A program made the position numbers and the translations under genes. Under the pieces are notes generated by a model. It searched no databases. It worked only from the letters and a program-made list of their open reading frames with translations, and had not been told where the DNA came from. This document shows positions 1 to 24,855 of a stretch of 30,432 bases of DNA, in pieces. The stretch is from a virus, in the IMG/VR virus record IMGVR_UViG_3300045884_000127, positions 1-30,432 of that record. One strand, given 5' to 3'. Each line of letters starts with the position of its first letter. Positions within the stretch are counted from its first letter, which is position 1.

Positions 1-1
1 G

Positions 2-133
2 CAACTCCTCAGAGAGCTCGGCCTGACCCCCGCTGCACGTCATCGTATGGGGTTGTGGGATGAGCAAGTCGACGATGCCTTCGCCAACGTTCTTAGCATC
101 GCCCAGGCCAAGGCTGGGAACGGCGAGAAGTAG
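2..133 (+). CDS. Small terminase subunit, C-terminal part (cut by window start)
   Basis: The reading frame enters from the left edge and stops at TAG 131-133. It encodes the last 43 residues of the same protein that is complete at 15229-15573, including the LGLTPAARHRMGL stretch typical of P27-type small terminases, and ends NGEK. Small terminases bind the packaging site and load DNA onto the large subunit. The first 127 bases are identical to 15441-15567, so the missing 5' part is probably the one at the window end (30126 onward), or the one at 15229 if the two units are cross-joined. The large terminase ATG at 60 lies inside this gene in another frame. Confidence 0.8.
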   Translation, partial: QLLRELGLTPAARHRMGLWDEQVDDAFANVLSIAQAKAGNGEK

Positions 134-1469
134 CCGGCGGACCCGTTCCCATGAGGCGGCTGCGGTCATGGAAGTGGTGGGCCGGCCCCTTCTCGACTGG
201 CAGGCCTACGCCCTCGACGTCGGCCTCGAAGTCACCCCGGACGGTTCGTGGGCTTTTCAGGATGTGGCGGTGGCGGTGGCCCGTCAGAACGGGAAGACGG
301 GCGGTGTCCTCGAGCCTCGCATCCTGGTCGGCCTCCTCTTATGGGGTGAGACGATCCTCCATTCCGCACAGAACCGGGATCTGCCCCGGGAATCGTTCCT
401 GGCTATCGCCGAAGTCTTAGAAGCCCGTTTCGGTGGCCGGTTGGCCTCCCGACCGCGGAGGGCGAACGGGCAGGAGACGATCCGGATGCGTAACGGTGGC
501 TCCTACCGGATCATCGCCCCACGCCCCGACGCCCCCCGCGGGCATCATGCCGACCTGGTCGTCCTCGACGAAGTACGGGAATACCGGGACACCAGCTTCA
601 TTTCGGCGATTCTTCCGACCCAGAACACCAGTGCTAACCCGCAAGTGTGGTGGGCATCCAATGCCGGCGACCCCGATTCGGTCGTGTTGAACGGCCTCCG
701 CGCGAGGGGCCTCGAGGGGGATCCGAGCCTGGCCTGGATGGAATGGTCGGCCGACCCGGCCCTACCCGACGATTCCCCTGAAGCCTGGGCCCAGGCCAAC
801 CCGTCGCTCGGCACTCTCATCGATGAGGAGCGGATCGCCCATCTCCAGGCCACGTTGACACCGGAAGCCTTCCAGACCGAAGTATTGTGCCGGTGGGTCG
901 ACATCAGCGGTACCAGGACAGTCCCAGCAGTCCTTTGGGATGCCGCCAGATCCAGGGACATGGAGGGACCGGCCGCTCCAATCCGGCCGGTCCTCTCCAT
1001 CGACATCGACCCCGATCGGAACGCTGTGGCCATGGCCGCCGCCTGGACCATGGGAGACGGGCGGATCGGCACCGACCTCGTCTTATACCGGACCGGCAAC
1101 CTCGACCAGCTCGAAGAGACGGTCCTGGGAGAAGTGTCAGCCCTCGGTCCTAGTCTCATCGGATATGACCCGTGGACGACCCAGGCTCTCGCCGACCACC
1201 TCACAGCATCCGGATTCGTCCTCCAAGCCGTAACCGGGAGAGCCTGGGTGTCCGCCTGCCAAACCCTCATCGACCTGTTGACCACCGACCGGCTCCGTCA
1301 TCCCGGCCGTGAAGCATTGGAAGCCCAACTGGCCCATGCCGCCCGGCGGGATACCAGGGAGGGCCGCTGGTGGATCTCCCGGGGCTCGGAGCCGATCCCG
1401 GCGGTGACCGCTACCGCCCGCGCCGTCTACCTCGCCTCCCGACCCCGCCCGGTCTACGCCATCCACTGA
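60..1469 (+). CDS. Large terminase subunit (ATPase and nuclease), unit A
   Basis: This is the DNA-packaging motor: an ATPase that pumps DNA into the prohead and a nuclease that cuts the concatemer. The 469-residue protein has an N-terminal ATPase domain with a Walker A-like RQNGKT (about residues 75-80), Walker B LVVLDE (166-171) and a coupling motif SNAG (200-203). An RNase H-like nuclease domain follows, with acidic residues in SIDIDPD (about 313-319) and GYD (368-370). The homologous region starts before VMEVVGRPLLDWQ, so an upstream start is needed; ATG 60 (or ATG 75) gives a 59-74 base overlap with the small terminase. Unit B's copy at 15500 has the same length and is nearly identical. 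Confidence 0.95.
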   Translation: MSKSTMPSPTFLASPRPRLGTARSSRRTRSHEAAAVMEVVGRPLLDWQAYALDVGLEVTPDGSWAFQDVAVAVARQNGKTGGVLEPRILVGLLLWGETILHSAQNRDLPRESFLAIAEVLEARFGGRLASRPRRANGQETIRMRNGGSYRIIAPRPDAPRGHHADLVVLDEVREYRDTSFISAILPTQNTSANPQVWWASNAGDPDSVVLNGLRARGLEGDPSLAWMEWSADPALPDDSPEAWAQANPSLGTLIDEERIAHLQATLTPEAFQTEVLCRWVDISGTRTVPAVLWDAARSRDMEGPAAPIRPVLSIDIDPDRNAVAMAAAWTMGDGRIGTDLVLYRTGNLDQLEETVLGEVSALGPSLIGYDPWTTQALADHLTASGFVLQAVTGRAWVSACQTLIDLLTTDRLRHPGREALEAQLAHAARRDTREGRWWISRGSEPIPAVTATARAVYLASRPRPVYAIH

Positions 1470-1563
1470 CCAGCCATCGGGTCAAGGTGGCGAGAAACAT
1501 GACGACCAGGACCAGGCCGACACCGACCGCCGACCCGATGATGAGCTGCTCGAGGATCTGCAT
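1411..1563 (-). CDS. Possible small holin-like membrane protein, reverse strand, unit A only
   Basis: A 50-codon reverse frame runs from ATG (1563-1561) to TAG (1413-1411). It would encode an N-terminal LE pair, one hydrophobic segment (about residues 7-27, rich in G, V, L and I), then a very basic Arg/Gly tail that overlaps the 3' end of the large terminase gene. The N-terminal pattern (M..LE..I, Gly-rich membrane helix, A..R) resembles the holin-like protein at 10850-11011. Unit B has no such frame here and carries a hairpin instead. No good ribosome-binding site is visible, so this may be a chance frame or an inverted relic of a holin-like gene. Confidence 0.3.
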   Translation of the reverse strand: MQILEQLIIGSAVGVGLVLVVMFLATLTRWLVSGWRRPGGVGRRGRRRGR

Positions 1564-1594
1564 CCTGTCAAGCATCAAACACCTGTTCTAAGCC

Positions 1595-1609
1595 TCAACT
1601 AGAGGTTGA
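1595..1609. promoter_or_regulatory. Small palindrome overlapping the late promoter -35 (unit A)
   Basis: TCAAC-TAGAG-GTTGA is a perfect 5+5 inverted repeat whose right arm overlaps the -35 hexamer. It is preserved in unit B (about 16986-17000). It is a candidate operator for a late-gene regulator; the arms are short, so this is only suggestive. Confidence 0.35.
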
Positions 1610-1634
1610 AGGTTGGCTTACCAGAGTGTAATTT
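1606..1634 (+). promoter_or_regulatory. Probable late promoter giving a leaderless portal mRNA (unit A)
   Basis: A -35 TTGAAG (1606-1611) and a -10 TAATTT (1629-1634) are separated by 17 bases. Transcription would start near 1641-1643, at the portal ATG (1642). The arrangement is kept in unit B, where the -10 reads TAGTTT. There is no Shine-Dalgarno sequence before the ATG, which fits leaderless translation, common in actinobacteria. Confidence 0.6.
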
Positions 1635-1641
1635 CCGTCCC

Positions 1642-2760
1642 ATGGGGTTCCTCGAGTGGCTGCGTGGTGATCAGACACCGACCCTCGAAGTACGACACAC
1701 CGACACCGACCCGTCCGCCTATCCCATCGAATGGCAGTTGGATGCGGTCGTCTGGCATCAATACCACGGGCAGGTAAGCCCCGAACGGGTTCCGGCTGTC
1801 TACGCCGCGATCGATCTCATCTCGGCTTCGGTAGCTCAACTGGCGACAGTGGAGACGACACCACTGTCACGACAGCCGGACCCGTTCGACACCCGATACA
1901 ACTTCCTGTTCGAAACCGTCCAGTCTCTCTGCTGGCATGGAGACGCCTACTGGCTGCTCACCCCTACTGACCGGGGTATCGATTCGATGCAGGTATTGGA
2001 CGCCGTCGACGTCGATGTGGAATGGACCGACCTGTTCCGCCGCCGGCTCCGCTCCTACCGCTGGAAGACAGAAGAGATCCCCCGCTCGAGGATCGCTCAT
2101 CTCCGGTTTCATCCCCGTGCCGGCCAGCTCGAAGGGCTCAGCCCGATCGAAGCGGCCCGGATGACCTGGGAGGGTGCCGCCTACTCCGAGGAGTACGGGT
2201 CCTCCCTGTTCGGAGCCTCCGGCGTCCCCTCCGGAGTACTGCGTGCTCCAACCCCCCTCTCCAAAGAGGAGGCCGAAGAGTTGCGGTCCCAATGGAACAC
2301 GGCACGCTCCGGCGGACGGAACACCGCGGTCCTGTCAGGTGGGATGGAATACCAGCCGGTCGAGCTCAGCCCATCGGACATCGGATGGTTAGAAACCAGA
2401 GCCTCCAATGCGCAAGAAGTCGCCCGGATCTTCCACATACCCGGCGACCTCCTCGAAATCGCCATTCAAGGCGGAGCCTCATCGGTCACCTACAAGAACC
2501 TTGCTGAAGTCGGCGCCGACTTCGTCCAATACTGTCTCAGCCCCTACATCACCATCATCGAAGAAGCATGGGCTGCCCTGCCCGGCCAGCCCGCCCTCCA
2601 ATTCGACACATCCCCCCTCTACCGGGAGAGCCTGGAGACCCGGGCTCGGACCCTCGGCCTCCTCGTCGCGGCCGGCGCCGATCCCGATGCGGCTGCTGAT
2701 GAGACCGGCTTTGACACTCTGCCCATGACCAACCCGGTACAGGAGGTTCAAGGCGTATGA
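1642..2760 (+). CDS. Portal protein (HK97 type), unit A
   Basis: The portal forms the ring at the capsid vertex through which DNA enters and leaves, and it docks the terminase and the connector. The 372-residue protein starts MGFLEWLRGD and contains the HK97-type portal core, including the AAIDLISASVAQL helix, the GLSPIEAAR stretch and the IFHIPGDLLEI and QGGASSVTYKN motifs. ATG 1642 is chosen because the frame upstream overlaps promoter elements and is not well conserved between units. The stop overlaps the start of the next gene (ATGA at 2757). The position directly after the large terminase is the usual one. Confidence 0.93.
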   Translation: MGFLEWLRGDQTPTLEVRHTDTDPSAYPIEWQLDAVVWHQYHGQVSPERVPAVYAAIDLISASVAQLATVETTPLSRQPDPFDTRYNFLFETVQSLCWHGDAYWLLTPTDRGIDSMQVLDAVDVDVEWTDLFRRRLRSYRWKTEEIPRSRIAHLRFHPRAGQLEGLSPIEAARMTWEGAAYSEEYGSSLFGASGVPSGVLRAPTPLSKEEAEELRSQWNTARSGGRNTAVLSGGMEYQPVELSPSDIGWLETRASNAQEVARIFHIPGDLLEIAIQGGASSVTYKNLAEVGADFVQYCLSPYITIIEEAWAALPGQPALQFDTSPLYRESLETRARTLGLLVAAGADPDAAADETGFDTLPMTNPVQEVQGV

Positions 2761-4280
2761 CCGACCTGCTGCAAATGGTTCTGCCCCTCGAGGTACGCAA
2801 CGCCGTCCAGGACACGGAGGGCGATGGTCGCACCCTCGAGGGGCGGATCGTCCCCTACGGAGAGACCATCACTCTCGGCGACAGTCAGGAGGCTTTCGCC
2901 CCCGGCGTGTTCAGTGAAGTAGAGCCCGGAGATGTCGTTCTCTTATGGCAGCACGACACGACGGCGCCCATCGGCCGGATGACCATCCTTCGTGAGGAGG
3001 AAGACGGTGCTTACGGCACATTCCGGCTGGCCGACACCGAACGAGCCCGGGAAGCCCGCAGCCTCATCAGTGAAGGTGTGATCCGTGGCCTGTCTGTCGG
3101 CTTCCAACCCGACCAAACCCAAAACCAGAAGGGTGTCAGAACGCATGTAAAGGCCAGGCTCAGAGAGACGAGCCTGGTCACATTCCCGGCATACCCCACC
3201 GCGGGGGTGCTGGCCGTCCGCGAGGAGGAGAGAATGGACGAACCCGAAGTGATGGTCGACGAGGCCATCCCCGAACCCCCGACGGTCGACCTGACGCCCA
3301 TCGAGACCCGTCTCGACGAACAGTCGGTAGCCCTCCGCGAAGTGAGGAATCAGATCGCCAACATCCAGACCCCAGGTGCTCCGCCCGAACCGACCATCAC
3401 CCTCGGCGAAGCCTATGCCCAGCTGTTGAAGATGGTCCTCAAGGACCGGCAGGAGCGTGCCCTCGCCGACGTGATCGGCACCGGCACCGGAAATGCGGAA
3501 GGCCTCGTCTACAACCAGTTCGTCTCCGAACTGCTCGGCTACATGGACGTTCGCCGCCCGCTCTTCTCAGCAGCCGGAACGGTCGGATTCCCCTCGAGCG
3601 GCTACGGGCTGGTCTTCCCGAGAATCACCCAACATGTCCTCGTTTCGAAGAGGACAGGTGAGAAGACGGAAGCCGCGTCGAGAGAGCTGACCGTCGCTCA
3701 GGCCACCTACAGCGCGGAATGGTTCGCCGGTGCGGTCGACGTTTCGATCGAACTGATCGAACAGTCCGAACCGTCGGTCCTGGAAGTGGTTGGCCGTGAC
3801 CTTCTGGGCATGTATGCGGTCGCGACCGAAACAGAGTTCGCCGTCGACGTGGCCGCAGCCGCCACCGCCACCGGCGACACTCTCACCTTCACCACTTGGG
3901 GTGATTTCGTCGCTGATGTGGTGTCCGCCTCGGCGGCTATCCAGACGGCCACCGGGGCTCCCGGCGACCGGCTGGCACTTACTTCGGCGTCCTGGCTGAA
4001 CATGATGGTTCTCCTGAACCCGAGCCAGCCGGCCACATCGTTCAACACGGCGCCGGACTTCACCGCTGAGAGTGTGAACGTGGGTGGAGTCATCGCATTC
4101 CACGCCCCGACGATCACCGTCGACACCCAGTTCAACACGACGTCGCTGCGGAAGGCGGAGAAGCCGCCGGTGCAGGTGTCCGCCACCAACGTTGCCCTGA
4201 TGGGCCGAGACATCGGGATCATCGGAGCGACCATCGCACTGCCTCTCTACCCGGCAGGGATCCTCAAGCACGCCGTCTAA
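2757..4280 (+). CDS. Fused prohead protease / major capsid protein, unit A
   Basis: One 507-residue frame carries two functions that are normally separate genes. Residues 1 to about 155 form an HK97-type prohead serine protease, with probable catalytic His66 in LWQHD and Ser113 in GLSVGF. Residues about 160-205 are acidic then helical, with coiled-coil character like the scaffolding delta domain. Residues about 215-507 are the HK97-fold major capsid protein (AAGTVGFPSSGYG, GEKTEAASRELTV, ALMGRDIGIIGAT). Fusions of this kind occur in very small actinobacteriophages. A strong internal ribosome-binding site before Met160 could yield capsid protein without protease. The gene starts by ATGA overlap with the portal gene. 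Confidence 0.93.
   Translation: MTDLLQMVLPLEVRNAVQDTEGDGRTLEGRIVPYGETITLGDSQEAFAPGVFSEVEPGDVVLLWQHDTTAPIGRMTILREEEDGAYGTFRLADTERAREARSLISEGVIRGLSVGFQPDQTQNQKGVRTHVKARLRETSLVTFPAYPTAGVLAVREEERMDEPEVMVDEAIPEPPTVDLTPIETRLDEQSVALREVRNQIANIQTPGAPPEPTITLGEAYAQLLKMVLKDRQERALADVIGTGTGNAEGLVYNQFVSELLGYMDVRRPLFSAAGTVGFPSSGYGLVFPRITQHVLVSKRTGEKTEAASRELTVAQATYSAEWFAGAVDVSIELIEQSEPSVLEVVGRDLLGMYAVATETEFAVDVAAAATATGDTLTFTTWGDFVADVVSASAAIQTATGAPGDRLALTSASWLNMMVLLNPSQPATSFNTAPDFTAESVNVGGVIAFHAPTITVDTQFNTTSLRKAEKPPVQVSATNVALMGRDIGIIGATIALPLYPAGILKHAV
3223..3236 (+). promoter_or_regulatory. Internal ribosome-binding site and start for free capsid protein (unit A)
   Basis: AGGAGG (3223-3228), a 5-base spacer and an in-frame ATG (3234-3236, Met160 of the fusion) form a textbook initiation site at the protease/delta-domain boundary. 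It would give a 348-residue delta plus capsid protein ending at 4280. The same arrangement is present in unit B (18614-18627) although neighbouring bases differ. Confidence 0.6.
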
Positions 4281-4289
4281 GGAGGGCCA

Positions 4290-4415
4290 TTGACCACAGA
4301 ACAAGACCCGGACATCACACCTGAGGAAGAGCCCGAGCCCGAAGCCCATCCCGAACCCGAAGAGGATCAGGACGAGAACGGAGACGAAGAGGAGGTTGAA
4401 GGCGCACCGGCATGA
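4290..4415 (+). CDS. Tiny acidic Pro/Glu-rich protein, unit A
   Basis: This 41-residue protein is almost entirely Glu, Pro and Asp, ends EVEGAPA and has no predicted fold. The start is TTG 4290, preceded by GGAGGG (4281-4286). The homologue in unit B starts at ATG 19686 with the same ending, which supports the reading. The stop overlaps the next ATG (ATGA at 4412). It lies between capsid and connector genes, so a role in head assembly or decoration is possible, but no function is recognised. It is easily missed because of its length and TTG start. Confidence 0.75.
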   Translation: MTTEQDPDITPEEEPEPEAHPEPEEDQDENGDEEEVEGAPA

Positions 4416-4891
4416 CACTCGAGGAACTGCTTGCCCTCCTGCCCGACAATGAGACGGGTCAGATCGGCGCCGACGATCTACGGACGGTGACCACCGAACT
4501 GTGGACCAAGATCGAAGATCTAGGACACTTGGTAGCCCGGTCGGCGCCGTTCAAATGGACCACAGCAGCCACTCCCGGCGACGGGCAGATGAAGACCAAC
4601 GATGGGACCTGGTCCACATCACCGACCACGCTGCTCGTCTCGAGGGTGGCCGCCTCCCTAGGCAACCCGCCCTGGGACTGGGTACAGCAGGCCCTTCAGG
4701 TCGGCTCTGTGATCCGAGTCCGTAACACGTTGACCACACCGTTGGACAACATGACCGGAGAAGTCACCGGCGCCCTCGTCATCCAACCGACCTACATCAC
4801 CATCCCCGTCTCGATCACATCGGCGGCAGGGACGGTGCCAACCAACAACAAGGCGGTCGCCATCGACATCCTCCAGGAGGTCTCCACATGA
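4412..4891 (+). CDS. Probable virion appendage or decoration protein, unit A only
   Basis: This 159-residue protein begins with LLPDNETGQIGADDLRTVT, resembling the LPDN..G.I...DLR segment often found at the start of phage structural and tail-fibre proteins. The rest is Thr/Ser/Val-rich and predicted beta-rich, as expected for an exposed virion module. It has ATGA overlaps on both sides. Unit B lacks it entirely, its connector gene following the acidic gene directly, so it is a recent gain in A or a loss in B. A host-range or decoration role is inferred from composition and context. Confidence 0.6.
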   Translation: MTLEELLALLPDNETGQIGADDLRTVTTELWTKIEDLGHLVARSAPFKWTTAATPGDGQMKTNDGTWSTSPTTLLVSRVAASLGNPPWDWVQQALQVGSVIRVRNTLTTPLDNMTGEVTGALVIQPTYITIPVSITSAAGTVPTNNKAVAIDILQEVST

Positions 4892-5289
4892 GCTTCAGCC
4901 ATGCGTTCGCCTCCGACCTGGATGTGGTCACCGACCCGCCCCCGTCGAGCGGACAGACGGAACGGTTGAAAACGGCGCTAATCCAGAAGGCGGCCCGGTT
5001 CCTCATCTTCCCCGAAGGGCCTCTCGGCTTCTTCGGTGAGATCACGGAACTGGGCCAGCCGTTCATCCGGCCCGACTATCAGATCCGCGAGCTCCTCTTC
5101 GGACTCCACTTGACAGTGGCAGTGGTCGACCTGGCATCCCTGGTCACAACCGATGATGTGATCCGGGCCGGATTGCAAGCAGATCCGGCGAACTTCCCCA
5201 CAGAGCGGCTTCCCGACGTGCAGCGCAGTATCGATGCGGCCGCCGATTGGATCGAACTCGAGCTAACCGGAGCGTTTGGAGTGGCATGA
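4888..5289 (+). CDS. Head-tail connector protein (gp6-like), unit A
   Basis: This 133-residue, mostly helical protein has the pattern of head-tail connector (adaptor) proteins that form a ring under the portal: LIQKAARFLIFPEGPLGFFGE, VTTDDVIRAGLQADPANFP and a C-terminal helix RSIDAAADWIELELTGAF. The first 22 residues differ from unit B's copy (19823), which has a shorter N-terminus, because of the neighbouring insertion of the 4412 gene in A. It is followed directly by the next start (TGA then ATG 5290). Confidence 0.65.
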   Translation: MSFSHAFASDLDVVTDPPPSSGQTERLKTALIQKAARFLIFPEGPLGFFGEITELGQPFIRPDYQIRELLFGLHLTVAVVDLASLVTTDDVIRAGLQADPANFPTERLPDVQRSIDAAADWIELELTGAFGVA

Positions 5290-5664
5290 ATGACCGACCC
5301 GACCACGCTCGAGGAGGCTCTGGCCGCCGAATTCGCCGGAGAAGTCCTGTTCGTGCCGACAGTGCCCGCCCAGATCTCACCACCCCAGGTGATCGTCGTA
5401 CCCGGAGACCCCTACCTGGCCCCGGCGACCCATGGGGCCGTGGAGGAACAATGGGAGGTGACCGTCGCCGTATCGATCAAAGAGCCCAAAGTTGGACTCG
5501 ACCAGCTCCGTACGTTGAGTCTCCGCTTGGCCCGGGTCTGCCAGCAGGCGGGTGCGGTCTGGGATCAGGCGGGCGGTCCCCTCTCGTCGACGGTGACCAA
5601 CGCTCAGACCGTCATCTCCCGGAACACGATCCGGTTCAAGTACACCCCACAACCAGAGGAGTAG
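5290..5664 (+). CDS. Probable tail terminator / tail completion protein, unit A
   Basis: This 124-residue protein has a beta-alpha-beta pattern with WEVTVAVSIKE and LSLRLARV, as in tail terminator proteins that cap the tail tube and join it to the head. Its position between connector and tail-tube genes supports this. There is no diagnostic motif, so the call rests on synteny and size. It starts immediately after the connector stop, and its own stop lies within the AGAGGAG ribosome-binding region of the tail-tube gene. Confidence 0.55.
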   Translation: MTDPTTLEEALAAEFAGEVLFVPTVPAQISPPQVIVVPGDPYLAPATHGAVEEQWEVTVAVSIKEPKVGLDQLRTLSLRLARVCQQAGAVWDQAGGPLSSTVTNAQTVISRNTIRFKYTPQPEE

Positions 5665-5668
5665 TCAT

Positions 5669-6088
5669 ATGACATCCGGTCCCACGTTCATTCCCGGCTA
5701 TCTCGGCACCGTCCTCCTGAACGCTGACGACATCAGTGCTATCGGATCGGTTGTCACTCTCGGCCAGTCCCGTAACCTGATGACCAAGCCCACCTTCGGC
5801 TCAGCCTTCGCCCACAGTCTGGGCGGCCAGAAGCTAGCCACTTTCTCAGCGAACGGTCATGTCTCAGCCGAACAGCTCGCCGACCTGCAGACCGCCTTCA
5901 ATTCGGATGCGCCCATCGCGTTCAGCCTCCAGATCGGTGATGCGGCCGGACCGACCGACGCCGGCATCTACTCGGGGGATTGTGTCCTCTCCAGCTTCGA
6001 AATAACCGCCTCAGCTGATGGGGAATGGGACTGGAGCATCGAAGCGCAGACGTCGGGGGATGTCACCTACGCACCGGCGACACCTTGA
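5669..6088 (+). CDS. Major tail (tube) protein, unit A
   Basis: This 139-residue protein is compact for a tail-tube subunit but matches the class: an N-terminal GYLGTVLLNADDIS strand pair, a central polymerisation-loop region (FGSAFAHSLGGQKLATFSA) and a C-terminal SSFEITASADGEWDWSIEA beta segment. It forms the stacked hexameric tail tube. It has a strong AGAGGAG site before ATG 5669. It is one of the most conserved proteins between the two units, as expected for an assembly component. Confidence 0.75.
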   Translation: MTSGPTFIPGYLGTVLLNADDISAIGSVVTLGQSRNLMTKPTFGSAFAHSLGGQKLATFSANGHVSAEQLADLQTAFNSDAPIAFSLQIGDAAGPTDAGIYSGDCVLSSFEITASADGEWDWSIEAQTSGDVTYAPATP

Positions 6089-6089
6089 T

Positions 6090-6569
6090 GTGGCCTCCCA
6101 GATCGCGGTCAAAGGGCTCGCCGACTTCCAACGGGACCTCCGGGGGGTAGACCCCCGGCTCGCCAAAACCCTCCAGGTCGCCCACAAGAAGGTCTCCTCC
6201 CGGGCCGTGGAAGGGATCAAACCGGCAGTCGGCCGTCTACCTTCACCGGGCTCGTCGAGGACGACGGGAGGGATCACCCCCCGGGCCGGCCAAAAGTACG
6301 CCCGGGTCGCCTTCAGTGGAGCGACCCGCTCCAAACCGCTCCACGCTTCCATCCTCGGCGCCAACTGGCATCCCGTCTTCGGCCGGTACATCCAGGCCGA
6401 CCGGATGAAACGACGGCTCTGGCAGCCCCACTTGGGGGCTACCTGGTCCTACGACCAGTTGTACGGGGCCGGCCCTGTCTTCACCCGGATCGCCGACACT
6501 TTCGCATTGGACGAATACGCCGACGCCATCATGGACTCTTTCGCTGAAGCGTTCCCGGAGCGGACCTGA
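6090..6569 (+). CDS. HK97 gp10-like minor head-tail/tail protein, unit A
   Basis: This 159-residue protein begins at GTG 6090, one base after the tail-tube stop, with VASQIAVKGLADFQRDLRGVDPRLAK at its N-terminus; FQRDLR..D..LAK is characteristic of gp10-like proteins. Frames upstream of GTG are not conserved with unit B, so the shorter start is preferred. The position between tail tube and tape measure is where frameshifted tail-assembly chaperones usually sit; none is recognised here, so this protein may take part in tail assembly. The stop overlaps the next start (TGATG). Confidence 0.65.
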   Translation: MASQIAVKGLADFQRDLRGVDPRLAKTLQVAHKKVSSRAVEGIKPAVGRLPSPGSSRTTGGITPRAGQKYARVAFSGATRSKPLHASILGANWHPVFGRYIQADRMKRRLWQPHLGATWSYDQLYGAGPVFTRIADTFALDEYADAIMDSFAEAFPERT

Positions 6570-7846
6570 TGCCCGACCGTAGACGGACCATCGAAGTCGA
6601 CTTCCTCGTCGACGATTCGGAAAAGCGGAAACTGACCGGGATCGGTGATGAAGCCACCATCACAGGTGGCAAGTTCGACGGTCTGAAAGGGGCAGTAGGC
6701 GGATTCCTCACTGTTGCCGCCGCCCAGCAGATCGGCCAGTTCATCGTCGACGTCACCAAACTGGGCGAACAGGCCACCATCGCTGCCGACTCTGCTTCCA
6801 AAGTCCTCGGCCCCGCCCTCGACGGTCTCCGTACCGACCTCGAGGAGGTCAGGGGGACGATGGGCTTCAACCGGAGCGAGCTCGACGAGACCATCGCCAA
6901 ATTCGGGCTGCTCACCGATTCGATGGGGCTCACCGACGACGCCCAAGCCGAATTCATCGGCTGGCTGATCGAAACCGGCGGGGAGCTCGCCGCCTTCAGA
7001 GGCGATCTGAGCCTCTCCGACGAAGCAGTCGACGCGCTCGGCGCCACCCTCCGCGGTGAATACGACAGCCTTGAACAGTTCGGAGTGAAAGTTTCCGACG
7101 CGGCCATCGAAGAGCGGAAACTGGAACTGGCCGCCGACCCGGCCAACACCGCCCTCTCCGACCAGCAGCTGGAACTGCTCGCCCTTCAGCAGCTCATCAC
7201 CGAAAAGGCAGCCCCGGCCATCGGGTCGTTAGCGGAGGCGCAGGACGGGCTAGCCGGGAAGACCAACGAGCTCAACGCCCGTTTCGAAGACATGAAGATC
7301 GCACTGGGCGAGAGGCTCATGCCGGTGGTCCTCACCCTCGGCGACGAGCTGCTCAAAACCTTCGACTCTTGGGATCGGCTGGTCAACGCCGAAACCTTCG
7401 GTAACACCGCTCTCGGCTCGTTCATCGACAACATTGCCGACGATGTCCAGACCCTCATCGACAGCTTCAAGACCCTCTTCGACATTGTTGGAGATGCGGC
7501 CGACGAGGTCAGAGACTTCTTCAATATGCAACCCGGGAATGCGCCGGCGCGGATCAGCTCGGGCATCGGCAGTCACGCTAGGGACATGACACGTTCCGGG
7601 CCCGGCCGTCAGCATGGCGGTCCCGTCCATAGCGGCAACCCGTATCTGGTCGGTGAACGCGGCCCCGAGATCTTCGTCCCATCAGCCAACGGACATATCA
7701 ACCCTGGCGGAGGGATGACCGCCAACATCACGATCAACGCCGGGATGGGCGCCGACCCGAACGCAATCAGTAGGGCTGTCGTCGAAGCTCTCCAACGCTA
7801 CGAACGGGCTAACGGATCGATACCGGTACGGGGAATGGGCCGGTAA
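6569..7846 (+). CDS. Short tape-measure protein, unit A
   Basis: The tape measure sets tail length and fills the tube before ejection. At 425 residues it is very short, implying a short tail for a siphovirus. It has a hydrophobic stretch near residues 40-60, long helical Ala/Glu/Leu-rich segments, and the classic C-terminal motif HGGPVHSGNPYLVGERGPE followed by FVPS.NG.I, seen in many actinobacteriophage tape measures. The C-terminal ITINAGMGADPNAI part is nearly identical in unit B, while the segment before it (about residues 270-340) diverges. TGATG overlap upstream and ATGG overlap downstream indicate coupled translation. Confidence 0.88.
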   Translation: MPDRRRTIEVDFLVDDSEKRKLTGIGDEATITGGKFDGLKGAVGGFLTVAAAQQIGQFIVDVTKLGEQATIAADSASKVLGPALDGLRTDLEEVRGTMGFNRSELDETIAKFGLLTDSMGLTDDAQAEFIGWLIETGGELAAFRGDLSLSDEAVDALGATLRGEYDSLEQFGVKVSDAAIEERKLELAADPANTALSDQQLELLALQQLITEKAAPAIGSLAEAQDGLAGKTNELNARFEDMKIALGERLMPVVLTLGDELLKTFDSWDRLVNAETFGNTALGSFIDNIADDVQTLIDSFKTLFDIVGDAADEVRDFFNMQPGNAPARISSGIGSHARDMTRSGPGRQHGGPVHSGNPYLVGERGPEIFVPSANGHINPGGGMTANITINAGMGADPNAISRAVVEALQRYERANGSIPVRGMGR

Positions 7847-8505
7847 TGGCAGTCCAAGCCATCTGGAACAATGAGCGGCTTGGTGATCCCGCCTATCTCG
7901 GTCTCACCCTGGGCGGGACCATCGAATACACGGCGAGTGGTTCCTTCGTCAAGGCGGACTATCCGGGATTGCGGGCTATCCGCCAGGACAACGACGAGCC
8001 GATCCTGGCAGTGGACCTGCCCGCCTCCCATCCGATCACTCCGGCCACCACGACCGGAACCCCGGGCACCCCTCCAGGCGGGACGCTCGGCTATGCCCAG
8101 GTGACCGCCAACCAAACCGGGATATCGAGCGCGACCGACCTGACTGGGCTTGCTGTCACCGTGACTGTCGCAACGAGTCGACGGATCAAGATCACCGGAC
8201 ATCATCAGATCGTCGCCACCGTTGCCGGTCTTGCCTTCGGAGAAGTACGCGAATCTACAACCACACTGGGCCGTTATGACGGAGCGAACATCGCCGTTAA
8301 CAGCAGGGACACTTACGACGGTTCGATCATCGTCTCACCAAGCACCGGATCACACACCTACAAGTTGACGTTGGTGCCCGCATCCGGCACCTTCAGCCTG
8401 GAAGCAGCCGCCACGATCCCTGCGTTCATCCTCGTCGAAGACATCACTCTGGCCACCGCCGCCGGTGGCGGCAGCACCGGTTCGGTCCTGGAACTCTGGT
8501 ACTGA
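7846..8505 (+). CDS. Post-tape-measure tail protein with inserted beta-rich tip domain, unit A
   Basis: Residues 1-60 match the 73-residue protein at the same place in unit B (22727), including GDP.Y.GLTLGG and KADYPGLRA, and the last residues (VLELWY) match its end. Between them lies a Thr/Pro/Gly linker (about 62-80) and a domain (about 81-200) beginning LGYAQVTANQTG and ending FILVEDI. Unit B carries a homologue of that domain on a different gene (24254). The domain is beta-rich and probably exposed on the tail tip, perhaps in receptor binding; function is inferred. The stop overlaps the next start (TGATG at 8503). Confidence 0.7.
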   Translation: MAVQAIWNNERLGDPAYLGLTLGGTIEYTASGSFVKADYPGLRAIRQDNDEPILAVDLPASHPITPATTTGTPGTPPGGTLGYAQVTANQTGISSATDLTGLAVTVTVATSRRIKITGHHQIVATVAGLAFGEVRESTTTLGRYDGANIAVNSRDTYDGSIIVSPSTGSHTYKLTLVPASGTFSLEAAATIPAFILVEDITLATAAGGGSTGSVLELWY

Positions 8506-9821
8506 TGACCGTCCTCGTCCCTCCTCCCGGTCAGATCCTCCACTGGTTGGGCGGGCCAGTCGACGTCCGAGTGGAGATCGACACCGGACTGGAAGGATCC
8601 GCTCTCGCCGACTGGGATGGCGCCCAATGGGATGAAGAACTCTGGGGCCTCGACGATCCGGGCTGGGCCGATCTGACCCCCTATGTGTTCGCAGTGAACA
8701 TCAACGGCGGCTCCCGTCGCTGGGGGGAACGTTTCGACGCCCGTTCGGCGGTCGTCACCGTCGACGACACAACCGGGATCTTCACTCCCGAATCGGGAGT
8801 CGACCCCTGGCCACTGCCCTTCCGACCCGGGCGGACCCTCCGAATAGTCGCCATCCCCGACGAGAGCACCGGTGTGAAATGGCCCATCTTCACCGGAGAA
8901 ATCGACTCGACTCAGGATCTCTACGACGACGCCGGCCATGCCATCACCACCGACATCTTCTGTAACGACTTCCTGGCTCGGATGGCCCGGGTCAACCCGC
9001 TGATGATGGCCACCGCCACCGGAGTGCAGACCACTGACGAGCGGGTAGATGCAGCCCTGGACCGGATGTCGGATCCGCCCGAACGGGACGTCCAAACCGG
9101 CCTTCACACCATGCAAACCTCATTCCTCGCCCAGACCGTCCTCGAGGAGTGCCAGCGGGCGGCTGATGCTGAGGGTGGTGCCTTCTACATGTCAGGAGAT
9201 GGGACCGCCACCTTCCGGGCTCGGGACTGGCTCATAACCGACGCCCGATCGGTCAACATTCAAGGCTATCTCGGCTATACGGAACTGCCCGTACCTGCCA
9301 GTGCCTCCGTATGGGATACCGCCGTCTGGGACACCGATATTTGGGAGGGTTTCGAACGGAACGCCGCCCACATCCTCAGTGTCACGGCCTCATGGGAGAC
9401 AGCCCGGATCGTCAACGATGTCAGCTTCGCCCGGGTCGGCTCCGTCGTCCAAGAGTCAGAAGACCTGACATCCCAGGATCAACATGGGATCCGCTCCTAC
9501 CAGCGGACCGACCTCGAAAACAATGCGGACACTGAAGTCGCCTTCCTCGCCGACCGGCATGTCACAGCCTTCAAAGACTCCCGGATGCGTGTCGAAGAAG
9601 TAACTGTCACCACCGTCGAAGACGCCGAAGGGGAGGACCGGCATCGTCTCTTCTACGACACCCAATTCGGAGATCGGCTCTCCATCCTCATCCAATCCGC
9701 CTGGGGCTGGTCGGTCGAAAAGGAGGTCCATGTGATGGGGATCAGCCATCAGATCACCGGCGACGACTGGACGGCCACCTTCCAGCTCGACGACGCCCAA
9801 ACCTATGAAGGGAGCATCTAA
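8505..9821 (+). CDS. Minor tail protein (tail tip/hub), unit A
   Basis: This 438-residue protein follows the tape-measure block and resembles actinobacteriophage minor tail proteins: ILHWLGGPVDVRVEIDTGL at the N-terminus, a beta-rich Ig/hub-like first part (GGSRRWGERFDARSA, TGIFTPESG, PFRPGR), and a C-terminal LDDAQTY. Two Trp-Asp repeats with Trp every five residues occur near residues 37-47 and 270-280. The second repeat sits in a stretch missing from unit B's copy, while unit B has a repeat at its C-terminus. It probably forms the baseplate or central tip. The stop overlaps the next start (TAATG). Confidence 0.75.
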   Translation: MTVLVPPPGQILHWLGGPVDVRVEIDTGLEGSALADWDGAQWDEELWGLDDPGWADLTPYVFAVNINGGSRRWGERFDARSAVVTVDDTTGIFTPESGVDPWPLPFRPGRTLRIVAIPDESTGVKWPIFTGEIDSTQDLYDDAGHAITTDIFCNDFLARMARVNPLMMATATGVQTTDERVDAALDRMSDPPERDVQTGLHTMQTSFLAQTVLEECQRAADAEGGAFYMSGDGTATFRARDWLITDARSVNIQGYLGYTELPVPASASVWDTAVWDTDIWEGFERNAAHILSVTASWETARIVNDVSFARVGSVVQESEDLTSQDQHGIRSYQRTDLENNADTEVAFLADRHVTAFKDSRMRVEEVTVTTVEDAEGEDRHRLFYDTQFGDRLSILIQSAWGWSVEKEVHVMGISHQITGDDWTATFQLDDAQTYEGSI

Positions 9822-10423
9822 TGCCCGAAATCGCCAATGTGGTCAGCGGCAACACCATCACCAGTACCTGGGGGAATCAGATTCGCGACCGGACCATCCA
9901 ACGGTACGCCTCGGCTACCGCCCGAGCTACTGCCCATCCGTCCCCTGCTGCCGGGGATCTCTCCTATCTGACCGACGTCGACGACATTGCTCTCTACGAC
10001 GGGGCTAATTGGATTCCACTACGTCTCGACGTCGAAATGGGCGGGAACGTATCGAGCACCCTGATAAATCTGAACACGGCCCCCTACGTGGAGATCGTGG
10101 CTGTCACCTTCACCAAGCCGGCCCACTGGAACACGTTCAAGATCATGGCCTGGGGCGGGGCCACTATCCGTGCCAACCCCACCGACTCATGGAATGTGGA
10201 AACCCGGGTTGTCATTGGTGCCAGTCTGGGGACCGGAGTCACAACCAACCCGCAAAGCACTAGTGGGGCTAGTGAGACCTGGCATGCTGCCGCCCGCCAC
10301 GAAGTAGCCGGCTTGGCCGCAACCGTCGCCATTGCCCTTCAAGGAAAGACAAGCGACGCCCCAACCGAAACATCACAAGTGGGTGGAGCCGTAATCAATT
10401 ATCTCGCCGTCCGAACCACCTAG
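9821..10423 (+). CDS. Variable tail-tip / receptor-binding candidate, unit A
   Basis: The first 25 residues (EIANVVSGN....TWGNQIRDR) match the N-terminus of the equivalent protein in unit B (24254), and the following DLSYLTDVDDIALYDGANW segment is of the attachment type common in small tail proteins. After residue 70 the two proteins are unrelated: A has a Thr/Val/Ala-rich beta domain of its own. A conserved anchor with a swapped C-terminus is typical of receptor-binding or tip proteins. The function is inferred from position and mosaicism; 200 residues. Confidence 0.6.
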   Translation: MPEIANVVSGNTITSTWGNQIRDRTIQRYASATARATAHPSPAAGDLSYLTDVDDIALYDGANWIPLRLDVEMGGNVSSTLINLNTAPYVEIVAVTFTKPAHWNTFKIMAWGGATIRANPTDSWNVETRVVIGASLGTGVTTNPQSTSGASETWHAAARHEVAGLAATVAIALQGKTSDAPTETSQVGGAVINYLAVRTT

Positions 10424-10437
10424 AGGGAGGCATCCAA

Positions 10438-10650
10438 ATGGCAGAGAAGAAGAAGACGACCAAACCCCGACAAAAAGCGACATTGAACCTCGAGGAGACC
10501 GCCGAATATCTGGGGATCACCGTTGAAGAGCTGATGCAATCCCGCGGGAGGGGATTGAGCCCCGGGAAGGACGGCTACAAGAAGGACGGCACCCTCGTCT
10601 GGGACCGCAAGAGCCTCCCGGCGAAGGATGAGGCCGTCGAAGAACAGTGA
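10438..10650 (+). CDS. Small basic helix-turn-helix-like protein, unit A
   Basis: This 70-residue protein has a Lys-rich N-terminus (AEKKKTTKPRQKA) followed by LNLEETAEYLGITVEELMQ, which has the spacing of an excisionase-type or AlpA-type helix-turn-helix, then a Gly/Lys-rich end with VWDRKSLPAKDEAVEEQ. It has a good ribosome-binding site AGGGAGG before ATG 10438. Both units keep it between tail and lysis genes. It could be a late regulator or a DNA-binding structural protein; no specific function can be assigned. Confidence 0.65.
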   Translation: MAEKKKTTKPRQKATLNLEETAEYLGITVEELMQSRGRGLSPGKDGYKKDGTLVWDRKSLPAKDEAVEEQ

Positions 10651-10679
10651 CAGTTTTCGCGATCTTGAGCGGTACTCTT

Positions 10680-10698
10680 ACACCGTATGGAACGGTGT
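10680..10698 (+). promoter_or_regulatory. Start-codon hairpin of the zinc-ribbon gene (unit A)
   Basis: ACACCGT (10680-10686) and ACGGTGT (10692-10698) are perfect 7-base arms around a 5-base loop ATGGA that holds the start codon. No Shine-Dalgarno sequence precedes it. The same hairpin and flanks occur in unit B. This may be a translational switch, an operator, or part of a leaderless start. Confidence 0.5.
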
Positions 10699-10845
10699 CG
10701 CTGGTGCCGGTCCGACGATCTCGACCAGGTCGAATACATCGAGGTCGACCTGTTCGGCACTCAAATCCGGGTGATCATCACCTACTGCAATACCTGCGGG
10801 AACGCAGAGACTGTCTCCTCGAAGGCGGTCCCAGCTTCAGCCTGA
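10687..10845 (+). CDS. Zinc-ribbon miniprotein, unit A
   Basis: This 52-residue protein has CRWC (Cys4, Cys7) and CNTC (Cys34, Cys37), two CxxC knuckles around a beta-rich core (VEYIEVDLFG, RVIITY), a standard zinc-ribbon layout. Unit B encodes the same protein at 25102 with nearly identical bases through the core. It lies just before the holin-like gene. Zinc ribbons of this size often bind DNA, RNA or proteins; the exact role is unknown. The start codon sits in a hairpin loop. Confidence 0.8.
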   Translation: MERCRWCRSDDLDQVEYIEVDLFGTQIRVIITYCNTCGNAETVSSKAVPASA

Positions 10846-10849
10846 GGGC

Positions 10850-11011
10850 ATGACTCCTCTCGAGACGATGATCGCAGTAGGGCTCGGCGGTTTCGGCTTG
10901 GGTGTGGGCATCGTCCTCGCCGCTTTCATCGCCCGGACTCTCCGCCGTTACATGAGCGACGAGGAGATGAAACCCTACGACCGGAAACGGAACGGGAATG
11001 GCGTCAAGTAG
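10850..11011 (+). CDS. Holin-like small membrane protein, unit A
   Basis: This 53-residue protein (MTPLETMIAVG start) has one Gly-rich hydrophobic helix at about residues 7-29 followed by RTLRR and a charged tail (DEEMKPYDRKRNGNG). A short N-terminus, single membrane span and charged C-terminus are typical of one-span holins. It precedes the endolysin, whose ATG (10998) lies inside this gene in another frame, suggesting coupled translation. Unit B's homologue is at 25262. Holin function is inferred from topology and position. Confidence 0.75.
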   Translation: MTPLETMIAVGLGGFGLGVGIVLAAFIARTLRRYMSDEEMKPYDRKRNGNGVK

Positions 11012-11648
11012 CCAGGTCCGCGCCTGGTGGGCCGACTACGAATGCAACCCGAACCTGTACACCAAGGTGTCGTTCCCCGGTGAAGGACGATCCTGGAATC
11101 TGTCAGTGGCCCGGGAGTCGGCACCGATCTGGTCGGCCGTCTCTCAGATCATGACCTCCGAGCCCTACCTGTTCAGAGAGTCAGCCGGCGGCACCTACAA
11201 CTGCCGACCCCCCTCACTCCACGCCTATGCCCTGGCCCTCGACTTGAACCCGTCGCAGAATCCGATGCGGAACCCGCCCACCTATGACTATCCGGACACA
11301 TTCATCATCCGGATGGAGGGGATCCGGGCCAACGGCCATCAGGCTCTCACCTGGGGAGGCCGCTGGCCGGCATCCAACCCGCCGGACACCATGCACTGGC
11401 AGGTCAACGTCCCACCCTGGGACTGTGACTACATCGAATGGGATACAGGAGGAGGACAGATGGGGAACTGGACCAGACCCGGCGACCCGGTCGACGACCT
11501 GGCCGACGCCCGCCGGGTCAACGAATATCAGGGATGGGACTTCTGGCGGCAGTCAGACTTCGACTACGACGAGAACGATCCGAAACAGCTCGACGAACGG
11601 TTCAAAGTCATCAGCTCACGTCTCATCGACTGGATGATGCGGCACTGA
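10998..11648 (+). CDS. M15-family endolysin (D-Ala-D-Ala / L,D-type peptidase), unit A
   Basis: This cell-wall peptidase would release progeny at lysis. The 216-residue protein has the M15 zinc motifs: SLHAYALALDLN (His75, Asp82; SxHxxxxAxD) and TMHWQ (His133). An N-terminal region (WWADYECNP, WNLSVARESAPIW) precedes the core, and a Tyr/Asp-rich C-terminal part (GNWTRPGDPVDDL onward) may be a wall-binding or dimer segment. It overlaps the holin-like gene by 14 bases. The gene is tail to tail with the lipoprotein gene, whose stop begins at the next base. The C-terminal part diverges from unit B's copy. Confidence 0.9.
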   Translation: MASSSQVRAWWADYECNPNLYTKVSFPGEGRSWNLSVARESAPIWSAVSQIMTSEPYLFRESAGGTYNCRPPSLHAYALALDLNPSQNPMRNPPTYDYPDTFIIRMEGIRANGHQALTWGGRWPASNPPDTMHWQVNVPPWDCDYIEWDTGGGQMGNWTRPGDPVDDLADARRVNEYQGWDFWRQSDFDYDENDPKQLDERFKVISSRLIDWMMRH

Positions 11649-12107
11649 TCATTCGCAGCCGAGCGACAGTCCATGGTCGATGGCAGCCTGCCCGTAGGCG
11701 AGCTGCCGCCAGTAGAGATCCTGGGAGTCTGAACCGTCTGTCGAATCGATCCAAAAGTTGGCTTCGGCGACGATGGTGGGACAGTCGGTCATCGCTTCGA
11801 TGAGAGCGACAGGCTCGGGCAGTTCTTCTTCGAGATTCCACGAGTAGTCGCCTTCGTCGTCCCGGTCGAGAAGCTCATCGTTGAGCCAGGTTTCGGTCGG
11901 ATAGCCATCGGGCAGATCACCGCGGAGGGTGACCTGATCGTCTTCGACCATGATCGACCATTCCAACTGGTCGACGGTCGGGGCTGTAGATGTGTCAGTG
12001 GTTGCGGTTGATCCGCCGCATGCTCCAATGGCGACAGCGCAGGCCAGTAGAACATATCGGATAGTGGTTTTGCTCAAGAGAGGCTTATCGGCCCAGAATC
12101 TAGGCAC
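11649..12107 (-). CDS. Secreted lipoprotein, candidate superinfection-exclusion factor, unit A
   Basis: The N-terminal part has a lipoprotein signal: basic residues, a hydrophobic run and the lipobox AIGAC, with lipidated Cys followed by GGSTATT. The mature domain is about 120 residues and acidic (DLPDGYPTETWLNDELLDRD, WRQLAYGQAAIDHGLSLGCE), with one further Cys pair candidate. The start may be GTG 12107 or TTG 12077; neither has a clear ribosome-binding site. It is transcribed from the lysogeny side against the lytic genes. Prophage lipoproteins in this position often block superinfection; that role is inferred. The mature domain is conserved in unit B but the signal region is not. Confidence 0.75.
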   Translation of the reverse strand: MPRFWADKPLLSKTTIRYVLLACAVAIGACGGSTATTDTSTAPTVDQLEWSIMVEDDQVTLRGDLPDGYPTETWLNDELLDRDDEGDYSWNLEEELPEPVALIEAMTDCPTIVAEANFWIDSTDGSDSQDLYWRQLAYGQAAIDHGLSLGCE

Positions 12108-12108
12108 C
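12092..12108. repeat. 17-bp direct repeat, left copy, flanking unit A integration module
   Basis: CCCAGAATCTAGGCACC here matches CCAAGTATCTAGGCATC at 13433-13449 in 14 of 17 positions, same orientation. A shorter CTAGGCA also occurs near 13226. The two copies bracket the structured region, the integrase and its control region. They may be integrase or regulator binding sites, or scars of module exchange. Confidence 0.4.
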
Positions 12109-12137
12109 TTGACTGCTTGCTTGTATTATCGGGAGGA

Positions 12138-12216
12138 GGTGCGGGCCCTGGCGTAACTCTTACCGGGAGGCAGACCCGGTTCGCCGGGGATGTCTTCCGT
12201 TCGCCGGACCCGCACC
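12138..12216. other. Cloverleaf-like GC-rich fold, unit A
   Basis: GGTGCGGG (12138-12145) pairs perfectly with CCCGCACC (12209-12216), enclosing three smaller hairpins: CCTGG/CCGGG, CCCGG-TTCG-CCGGG (12175-12188, a UUCG tetraloop) and TCCG/CGGA (12196-12208), the last stacked directly on the outer stem. The size (79 nt) and layout recall a tRNA-like fold, but no tRNA T-loop or anticodon arm is recognisable. It lies between integrase and lipoprotein genes, where unit B keeps its attP. It could be a small RNA or part of the attachment site. Confidence 0.4.
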
Positions 12217-12280
12217 ACTCGTTGCGACACCCTTAGACCGGAAAGCACTCATCGTTAGGTGGGGGCGCCCCCCGCGGTCC

Positions 12281-12347
12281 GGTCCAGTTGCACCTAGACC
12301 GAACGTTGGAGGTCGCCCCCCTGTCGTCCTACCGGTGCAACTGGCCC
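12281..12347. repeat. Long inverted repeat downstream of the unit A integrase
   Basis: CCAGTTGCACC (12284-12294) and GGTGCAACTGG (12334-12344) are perfect 11-base arms, extendable to 14 with one mismatch, around a 39-base loop. Together with the palindrome GGGGGCGCCCCC just upstream (about 12261-12272) and the cloverleaf-like fold, it fills the 290-base stretch between lipoprotein and integrase. No gene is supported here. It is a candidate attP arm region or a terminator-like structure. Confidence 0.45.
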
Positions 12348-12397
12348 GCAGTGCAATGCGGTCGATAGTCATGTCGGAAATTCTGGCAGATGTGGTC

Positions 12398-13212
12398 TCA
12401 TTCGTTGACCGCCGGCCAGACCTGGGCGTAAGACAGGTTCTGTGAGGCGAGGATCATCCGGTCTCGGGTGACCCGGGTGTATCCGGCGGTCGTTTCAGGT
12501 GAGGCATGTCGGGCGAGTTCTTGGGCGACCCGGAGGTCTCCCGACTTGTCGTTCACGTCGGAGATGAACGTGTGTCGCAGCTTGTGGGGGGTCAGGTCGG
12601 GTATGCCGGCTGCGGTTCCGATCTGGGCGACCCACAGGGCGACAGTGGCCGGGTTTACATGGGCGGTCCGGTTCCCGGGGAACAGGTACCGGTATGCGGT
12701 TTGCCGGCCCTGGATTTCTTCCCGGACGATGTGATGGACCGGGATCTCTTCGACGATGTTGCCTTTCCCGTATACCTCATACCAGTCGAGCTGGGGGGTG
12801 AAGCGGGTCCAGTCGACGGCGGCGATCTCGAGGCGGCGTAGTCCCATGAGCAGTCCGAAGAGGACGGCGGTGCCTTCGGGGTAGACGCCCCTTGAGGTTT
12901 GGACGAGGGCGGCGGCCTGTTCGTCTTCGACGCCGTTCCATTTCATCCGTCGCCGTTTCGGAGCTCGGATGGCGCCGGTCGGGTCGTCTTCGACGCCTCG
13001 CCACCGGTACCAGTGGCCGAGGGCGACTGCATGTTGACGGCGTGAGGCGGACGTGTCGGGCAGCGTTTCGCTGTAGGCGCGCATGGCGAGCGGGTCCGTC
13101 TCCAGCGTTCTACAGCATGTCCGTAGATCCTGATTGTCCGGTCGGAAAGTCCTCGCCCGACCAGATAGTTAACGAACCCAATCGTTGTGTCTTCAGATCC
13201 CAGCATTCCCAT
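12398..13212 (-). pseudogene. Tyrosine integrase split by a frameshift, unit A
   Basis: The N-terminal core-binding part (ATG 13212 or 13206: GFVNYLVGRGLSDRTIRIYG, then HAVERWRR) and the catalytic part lie in different frames. The second frame picks up at DPLAMRAYSETLPD near 13085 and continues to 12398. A shift of -1 near 13095-13105 joins them into one normal protein of about 270 residues. Catalytic residues are present: GLRRLE (Arg), LTPHKLRHT (His, Arg), LARHASPETTAGY (His, Tyr). No clear slippery sequence is visible, so this is a disabling mutation, a sequence error, or a gene read as two pieces. The integrase would mediate site-specific recombination with the host chromosome. Confidence 0.75.
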
Positions 13213-13362
13213 GGTGCCCCTCTTACTAGGCACTGGAATGATGTCCGGGTCCGACCCTACCCCGCCTGTGGGAAAGTTATGCACGAGTCGCGAAAACTTT
13301 CCCCGCATTCTGCTTGCACAACCCCCCTGCCGGGTGGGTAGGGTGAATGGTTAACAGTTTGC

Positions 13363-13456
13363 GTGACGGTGTTTTGAGCTACCGCGGATTAATTCCAGTG
13401 GACGTTACAGCGCCCACAGTAGCTCAAGCCTGCCAAGTATCTAGGCATCCCGTCAC
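13363..13456. promoter_or_regulatory. Divergent control region with nested inverted repeats, unit A
   Basis: Between the leftward integrase and the rightward winged-helix gene, TTGAGCTAC (13374-13382) pairs with GTAGCTCAA (13419-13427), and outside them GTGACGG (13363-13369) with CCGTCAC (13450-13456). A copy of the 17-bp repeat lies at 13433-13449. The 264-base gap 13213-13476 holds no supported gene. It must contain the integrase and early promoters; a unique -35/-10 pair could not be fixed. Confidence 0.45.
13433..13449. repeat. 17-bp direct repeat, right copy (unit A)
   Basis: This is the partner of the copy at 12092-12108 (14 of 17 bases identical, same orientation). It sits just upstream of the winged-helix gene's ribosome-binding site, so it could also act as an operator. 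Confidence 0.4.
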
Positions 13457-13476
13457 CTGAGTTTTTGGAGGTACGC

Positions 13477-13740
13477 ATGGACGTATCCGCAACGCCGGGT
13501 GTCCTCGAGATCCCCTATGCCCTCGCGTTCAAGGCGGAACAGCACTCGGATCTGGCCGTCTACCTGGCCATCGCCCATTTCATCAGAGGGGGGATCAACC
13601 GGCCCTCCCACGGGTCGATAGCCGAGCTTGCCCAGATCAGCCGGGAAACGGTCAGCGCCTCGCTCAAGCGTCTCGTCGCCGGCGGGTACATCACCGTCGA
13701 CAAGGAAGCCGCCCCCCACGCCTACTCGCTCGCAGCATGA
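13477..13740 (+). CDS. Winged-helix DNA-binding protein, early regulator candidate, unit A
   Basis: This 87-residue protein has a winged helix-turn-helix: LAVYLAIAHFIRGG, then SHGSIAELAQISRETVSASL (helix-turn-helix), then KRLVAGGYITVDKE (wing). It has a strong GGAGGT site six bases before ATG 13477. The pattern resembles replication-initiator N-terminal domains and MarR/GntR-like regulators. It is the first gene of the rightward early operon and divergent from the integrase, so a lysis-lysogeny or replication control role is likely. Unit B has an unrelated DNA-binding protein in this place. Confidence 0.75.
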   Translation: MDVSATPGVLEIPYALAFKAEQHSDLAVYLAIAHFIRGGINRPSHGSIAELAQISRETVSASLKRLVAGGYITVDKEAAPHAYSLAA

Positions 13741-13757
13741 GCATCGAGATCCCATCA

Positions 13758-13780
13758 CTTCCCCGCACCATCGGGGGAAG
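13758..13780 (+). terminator. Hairpin after the winged-helix gene (unit A)
   Basis: CTTCCCC (13758-13764) and GGGGAAG (13774-13780) form a perfect 7-base stem with a 9-base loop just after the stop codon. There is no T-run behind it, so it may be an attenuator or the first element of the structured leader rather than a full terminator. Confidence 0.4.
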
Positions 13781-13806
13781 GAGAACCTGAAGGCCGAGTA
13801 GTGATC

Positions 13807-20988: not shown

Positions 20989-21468
20989 GTGGCATCTCAG
21001 ATCACAGTCAAAGGGCTCGCCGACTTCCAACGGGACCTCCGGGGGGTAGACCCCCGGCTCGCCAAGACCCTTCAGGTCGCCCACAAGAAGGTCTCGTCGA
21101 GGGCAGTGGAAGGTATCCGGCCGGCGGTAGGACGCTTACCCTCGCCGGGAAGCTCGAGGACGACAGGGGGGATCACCCCGCGGGCCGGCCAGAAATACGC
21201 TCGGGTCGCCTTCTCCGGAGCGACCCGTTCCCAACCGCTCCACGCTTCGATTCTCGGCGCCAACTGGCATCCCGTCTTCGGCCGGTTCATCCAGGCCGAC
21301 AAGATGAAACGACGACTCTGGCAACCCCATCTCGGCGCCACCTGGTCCTACGACCAGCTGTACGGGGCCGGACCTGTCTTCACCCGGATCGCCGACACCT
21401 TCGCATTGGACGAATACGCCGACGCCATCATGGACGCTTTTGCTGAAGCTTTCCCGGAGCAGACCTGA
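20989..21468 (+). CDS. HK97 gp10-like minor head-tail/tail protein, unit B
   Basis: This 159-residue homologue of the unit A protein starts at GTG 20989, one base after the tail-tube stop. FQRDLRGVDPRLAK is unchanged. The upstream codons of the longer frame differ completely from A, which supports GTG as the start. TGATG overlap with the tape-measure gene. Confidence 0.65.
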   Translation: MASQITVKGLADFQRDLRGVDPRLAKTLQVAHKKVSSRAVEGIRPAVGRLPSPGSSRTTGGITPRAGQKYARVAFSGATRSQPLHASILGANWHPVFGRFIQADKMKRRLWQPHLGATWSYDQLYGAGPVFTRIADTFALDEYADAIMDAFAEAFPEQT

Positions 21469-24243: not shown

Positions 24244-24253
24244 GAGGTAAGTG

Positions 24254-24841: not shown

Positions 24842-24855
24842 AAAGGAGCCCTACG

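Follow-up and report, generated by a model that had tools for sequence, protein, structure and literature searches.

In lambda C/Nu3 and Mu I/Z, the head protease gene contains an internal in-frame start with its own Shine-Dalgarno (SD) sequence, and this start yields a shorter product that ends at the same stop codon as the longer one. In both phages, the shorter product comprises just the scaffold, and a separate gene encodes the major capsid protein. HK97 gp4/gp5 have the order S78-type protease, helical delta domain and HK97 capsid fold, and they are encoded by separate genes with separate starts. In the smallest tailed phages, protease and capsid are instead fused in a single gene, and the fusion taken literally means one protease per subunit, which is far above the presumed need of the capsid.

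Studies of Arthrobacter and Microbacterium phages report that this fusion is common among siphoviruses whose genomes are very small (PMC5513430, PMC7302621); an internal start is unmentioned in these two papers, and the word 'internal' occurs 0 times in either. For the Pseudomonas phage PAJU2, free capsid protein has been proposed to arise by autocatalytic cleavage, as quoted in the Nocturne116 paper, which itself considers a natural fusion (PMC8306868). In the open-licence full-text literature, we did not find an internal start described for such fusions, and an earlier mention elsewhere is possible.

The stretch of DNA analyzed here, all 30,432 nucleotides of which we call the window, is a metagenome virus record (IMG/VR IMGVR_UViG_3300045884_000127) whose more distant relatives are actinobacterial phages and prophages. 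It contains two units of 15.4 kb (A) and 14.9 kb (B), each with the gene order terminase, portal, fusion. The units fit the small-actinophage fusion genomes, which are ~14-18 kb long and have the order terminase, portal, fusion, adaptor, tail, and they share the same fused gene and gene order with the ~15-17 kb genomes of clusters AN, AX, FE, EE, CW and DM and of RRH1. Like lambda C/Nu3, each fused gene has an in-frame internal start that shares the stop codon of the longer open reading frame (ORF), and this start has a ribosome-binding site of its own that appears to be under selection. Unlike lambda C/Nu3, the predicted short product consists of the delta scaffold together with the major capsid protein itself. 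The domains and their order are those of HK97 gp4/gp5, but here they lie in a single ORF in which the capsid start is nested. What is new here is a nested major capsid gene, very likely a real one as judged from sequence, within a protease-capsid fusion; for the nested start as such, lambda C/Nu3 is a known example among head protease genes.

The protease-capsid seam in units A and B

The first-pass annotation had claimed that both units carry AGGAGG, five bases and then an in-frame ATG at Met160 of the fused ORF, and we found an exact match to this description in each unit (Table 1). The spacer reads AGAGA in unit A and AAAGA in unit B, and codon 160 occupies positions 3234-3236 and 18625-18627, respectively. 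Just two copies of AGGAGG-N5-ATG exist in the 30-kb window, both at the Met160 seams, where shuffling predicts 0.29 copies and gives at least two in 3 of 100 shuffles. When the gap between AGGAGG and ATG is widened to 4-10 nt, the window contains 13 sites compared with 2.3 expected, since strong SDs are a general habit of this phage. The fused proteins of the two units are 77% identical at the amino acid level, and because the two copies are related, the chance argument within the window alone is weak and the relatives must carry the weight. Both units have a hairpin whose loop contains the SD; it was set aside, as it is apparently not kept in the sequences of closer relatives.

Table 1. Positions of the fused genes, their two SDs and the proposed nested capsid genes in the window
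Feature	Positions	Strand	Basis or remark
Unit A fused prohead protease-delta-capsid ORF, 507 aa	2757..4280	+	PF04586, phrog_2263, AlphaFold, Foldseek
Unit A SD of full-length start, AGGAGG	2741..2746	+	10 nt before ATG 2757
Unit A protease part, 159 codons	2757..3233	+	Pfam match, AlphaFold model
Unit A internal SD, AGGAGG	3223..3228	+	5 nt before internal ATG; kept in relatives
Unit A proposed nested capsid gene (delta + HK97-type capsid), 348 codons	3234..4280	+	
Unit B fused protease-delta-capsid ORF, 509 aa	18148..19677	+	PF04586, PF05065, phrog_2263
Unit B SD of full-length start	18132..18137	+	
Unit B internal SD, AGGAGG	18614..18619	+	
Unit B proposed nested capsid gene, 350 codons	18625..19677	+	Begins at ATG 18625

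Profile and structure searches identify a single ORF with an N-terminal S78 protease and a C-terminal HK97-type capsid domain. Peptidase_S78 (PF04586, Pfam) is matched in both units and covers residues 19-156 of the unit A ORF, PF05065 is matched in the unit B ORF, and the phrog_2263 major head protein covers residues 17-489 of the unit A ORF, which is nearly its whole length. An AlphaFold model of the fused protein has a mean pLDDT of 70.9 and a pTM of 0.46, and is good for domain borders only. It places the final protease strand at residues 150-154, a stretch of low confidence at 154-176 that contains Met160, the first delta helix at 180-201, a further helix at 216-230 and the capsid domain at 253-507. 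Foldseek matches the modelled capsid part to HK97 heads. Met160 falls in a linker, predicted to be disordered, that joins the S78 protease to the helical delta/HK97 capsid part, and the protease/delta-domain boundary that had been placed at this residue is borne out by the agreement of the Pfam protease end at 156 with the AlphaFold linker at 154-176. In unit A, the full-length start overlaps the portal stop codon as ATGA.

Conservation of the seam start in relatives

All of the first 14 relatives taken from IMG/VR (57-100% identical) have an in-frame seam ATG with a purine SD before it, and the seam peptides of these relatives differ in both sequence and length (REEERM, RKEDDM, SKEDQM, REEGKPM and REEHPPM). 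Isolates whose annotation reads 'major capsid and protease fusion' and that are 22-31% identical carry the seam site too. They include Microbacterium phages of cluster EE, Exiguobacterium phage phiExGM16, the Curtobacterium phages Root and Penoan, the Arthrobacter phages Decurro, MooKitty, Atraxa and others, the Gordonia phages Schiebs, GMA5, McGonagall and Coeur, Rhodococcus phage RRH1 and Streptomyces phage TieDye. The site is weak in Berka (-5.3) and in Corgi and Yavru (-6.3), and in Gordonia phage Emperor (L115 1351-3210) we examined the seam and found the SD and start to be absent. The present data say that most fused genes of small actinobacteriophages also bear a putative nested capsid start.

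The same arrangement, in which a protease is fused to a capsid protein and an SD and ATG lie at the seam, is seen in phages that are far from the window in sequence. PAJU2 ORF003 has CCAGGAGGGCAACGAC and then ATG at Met197, and Lactococcus phage Q54 and Nocturne116 have purine SDs before the seam ATG. The Nocturne116 major capsid protein (L124 1595-3145; PDB 9sz9/9sza, 516 aa entry) is a protease-capsid fusion and is the one fused relative that was found by a PDB sequence search. In unfused relatives, the capsid gene begins at or just after the protease stop codon and often overlaps it.

To quantify the site, we scored ungapped complementarity to the 16S tail at a spacing of 4-10 nt, and the ATG that was scored was the first one after the protease motif, picked regardless of any SD. 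An earlier metric (RNAduplex gapped energy, best ATG in the seam interval, no spacing rule) had shown no excess over synonymous shuffles (Stouffer p ~0.7); the spacing-aware score was adopted after seeing the data and was then frozen for genes that were fetched later. In the first set of 33 fused genes less than 60% identical, 32 of which had an ATG, the median score was -9.7 kcal/mol compared with -4.3 kcal/mol for 232 other ATGs (p = 1.6e-12), and the synonymous excess was modest (p = 0.002). For the held-out set, IMG/VR and GTDB (one genome per species) gave ~160 fused ORFs, from which we kept 68 genes that are less than 60% identical both among themselves and to genes of the first set. Here 58 of the 68 genes had an ATG in the seam interval, with a median of -8.5 kcal/mol compared with -3.3 kcal/mol for 404 other ATGs (p = 3.6e-19), and a score of -7.5 or better was reached by 69% of the seam ATGs and 11% of the others. 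The excess over synonymous shuffles in the held-out genes had p = 2e-9, which, like the other p-values here, overstates independence because the fused genes appear to be largely one old radiation. The same shuffle test applied to the 404 control ATGs, which have the same ancestry as the seam ATGs, yielded a mean p of 0.504 and no excess. Conservation above the codon expectation, which the first-pass annotation had named as the check on its proposal, is thus found in the held-out genes and is flat in the controls.

In a protease-domain tree, which has few columns and weak support, fused and unfused genes separate with two changes only, and many independent origins of the fusion are not supported by it. 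We looked for a sharp peak of synonymous conservation at the site among the 14 closest relatives and did not find one; the rise there is only mild (rank ~63-70 of 510 windows).

Translation start versus peptide

Where the seam ATG is absent, a GTG with a strong SD takes its place in four relatives (L040, L058, Idaho (L027) and L095) and in ~10 of the held-out genes. The SD core occupies each of the three codon phases (58, 22 and 8 genes, n = 88), which encode K/E-E, Q/T-G-E and E-R peptides, and the spacings between SD and start cluster at 5 and 8 nt. The RNA from -20 to +20 is less folded than that of synonymous shuffles (mean z +0.72, p = 4e-8), as is the RNA from -4 to +30, which mostly lies outside the SD (p = 2e-5); no such relaxation was seen at other ATGs in the same test. 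GC3 drops just after the internal start, and relaxed RNA and low GC3 are the usual marks of translation initiation regions. Given that the SD occurs in three codon phases, that the peptides differ and that ATG changes to GTG with the SD kept, these comparisons point to selection that acts on a translation start and not on the peptide.

The capsid start of unfused relatives lies at the same place and often overlaps the protease stop, as would fit a relic in which separate protease and capsid genes were joined by loss of a stop codon and the old capsid start was left unused. However, an unused signal should decay, and this one is kept above codon expectation in genes less than 60% identical, in different codon phases and with start-like RNA structure, and it persists while the surrounding linker is rewritten. 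We therefore regard the relic as improbable. It is slightly harder still to credit that the linker needs charged KE or EE residues for cleavage or flexibility and that their GAG and AAG codons form an SD by chance. Such a constraint accords with the 58 of 88 SDs that are in the frame reading K/E/Q-E and with the lack of a codon-level excess in the unspaced metric, but it does not account for the 30 of 88 sites in other phases that give Q/T-G-E, E-G or E-R peptides, for the finding that Met gives way to Val only where the codon is GTG and the SD is strong, or for a spacing-aware codon excess that the controls do not share. SD-like sequences within genes have been proposed to slow ribosomes, and although the position at a domain boundary fits a site that acts chiefly as a pause and lets the protease domain fold before capsid synthesis, a pause needs neither a start codon at a fixed spacing of 5-8 nt nor replacement of ATG by GTG nor an unstructured downstream region, and we give it almost no credence.

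Proposed products of the fused gene

It is highly probable that the gene comprises two in-frame starts and one stop and would give both the fusion and free delta-capsid protein. We infer ribosome use of the internal start, the ratio of the two products, their co-assembly and their cleavage. Initiation at 2757 (18148 in unit B) would produce protease-delta-capsid, and the internal SD and ATG 3234 (18625) would produce delta-capsid without the protease. Both products would be expected to co-assemble through their delta and capsid parts, such that some subunits would bring protease into the prohead and the remaining subunits would leave space for DNA, and maturation would later cut off delta and protease. 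Since the capsid gene of unfused relatives begins at or after the protease stop, the fused state would retain the old capsid start inside a longer frame, where selection would keep it working.

The first-pass annotation had also proposed that the virus makes little fusion and much free capsid protein. Its nested capsid start is upheld by the held-out conservation, the RNA structure, the GTG replacements and the codon phases, whereas the claim about the ratio of the products was dropped, because the upstream and internal SDs are about equal in strength on average: among 20 annotated genes, the full-length start averages -8.9 and the internal start -9.0. In unit A, the match is longer for the upstream SD (-15.3, at a spacing of 10 nt).

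We consider it probable that fused HK97-type protease-capsid genes have the seam start as a general rule in phages of Actinobacteria, Firmicutes and Proteobacteria, that these 'fusions' are two overlapping genes, and that free capsid protein arises by translation and not only by autocleavage. With a nested start at the seam, one gene would supply both fusion and free capsid, and the annotations of hundreds of such phages would miss a gene. The nested start suggests a simple way to uncouple the dose of protease from the supply of capsid protein.

Several other features of these genomes were observed. Emperor has an N-terminal membrane-like stretch ahead of its protease-capsid fusion; the SD CGAAAGGACCCCACC and the ATG of Met121 come right before the protease, and Met121 is possibly another nested start. 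In EpicDab, an ATG ahead of the protease domain was pointed out in a Gordonia study, which linked it to a holin idea (PMC9671378), and the Emperor stretch may be compared with the holin-capsid fusion idea for EpicDab in that study. Directly behind the capsid gene of both units of the window lies a short, very acidic frame (4290-4415 and 19686-19826) that starts with TTG in unit A and ATG in unit B, has a good SD before it in each case, and falls under the usual length cut-offs.

The 30.4-kb record itself resembles two ~15-kb phage genomes joined in a circle (unit A, 1-15440; unit B, 15441-30340), and an identical stretch of ~120 bases upstream of the terminase gene marks the joint (1-92, 15410-15532 and 30310-30432). 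The IMG/VR contig 3300045978_000302 (15027 b) begins and ends with the same 123 bases and consists of unit B by itself, closed into a circle of 14.9 kb; the tandem record may therefore have arisen by co-assembly, or it may be a real dimer. Both units encode a tyrosine integrase on the minus strand (12398-13084 and 26915-28177), and the unit A frame is 228 aa long compared with 420 aa in unit B and lacks the N-terminal domains.
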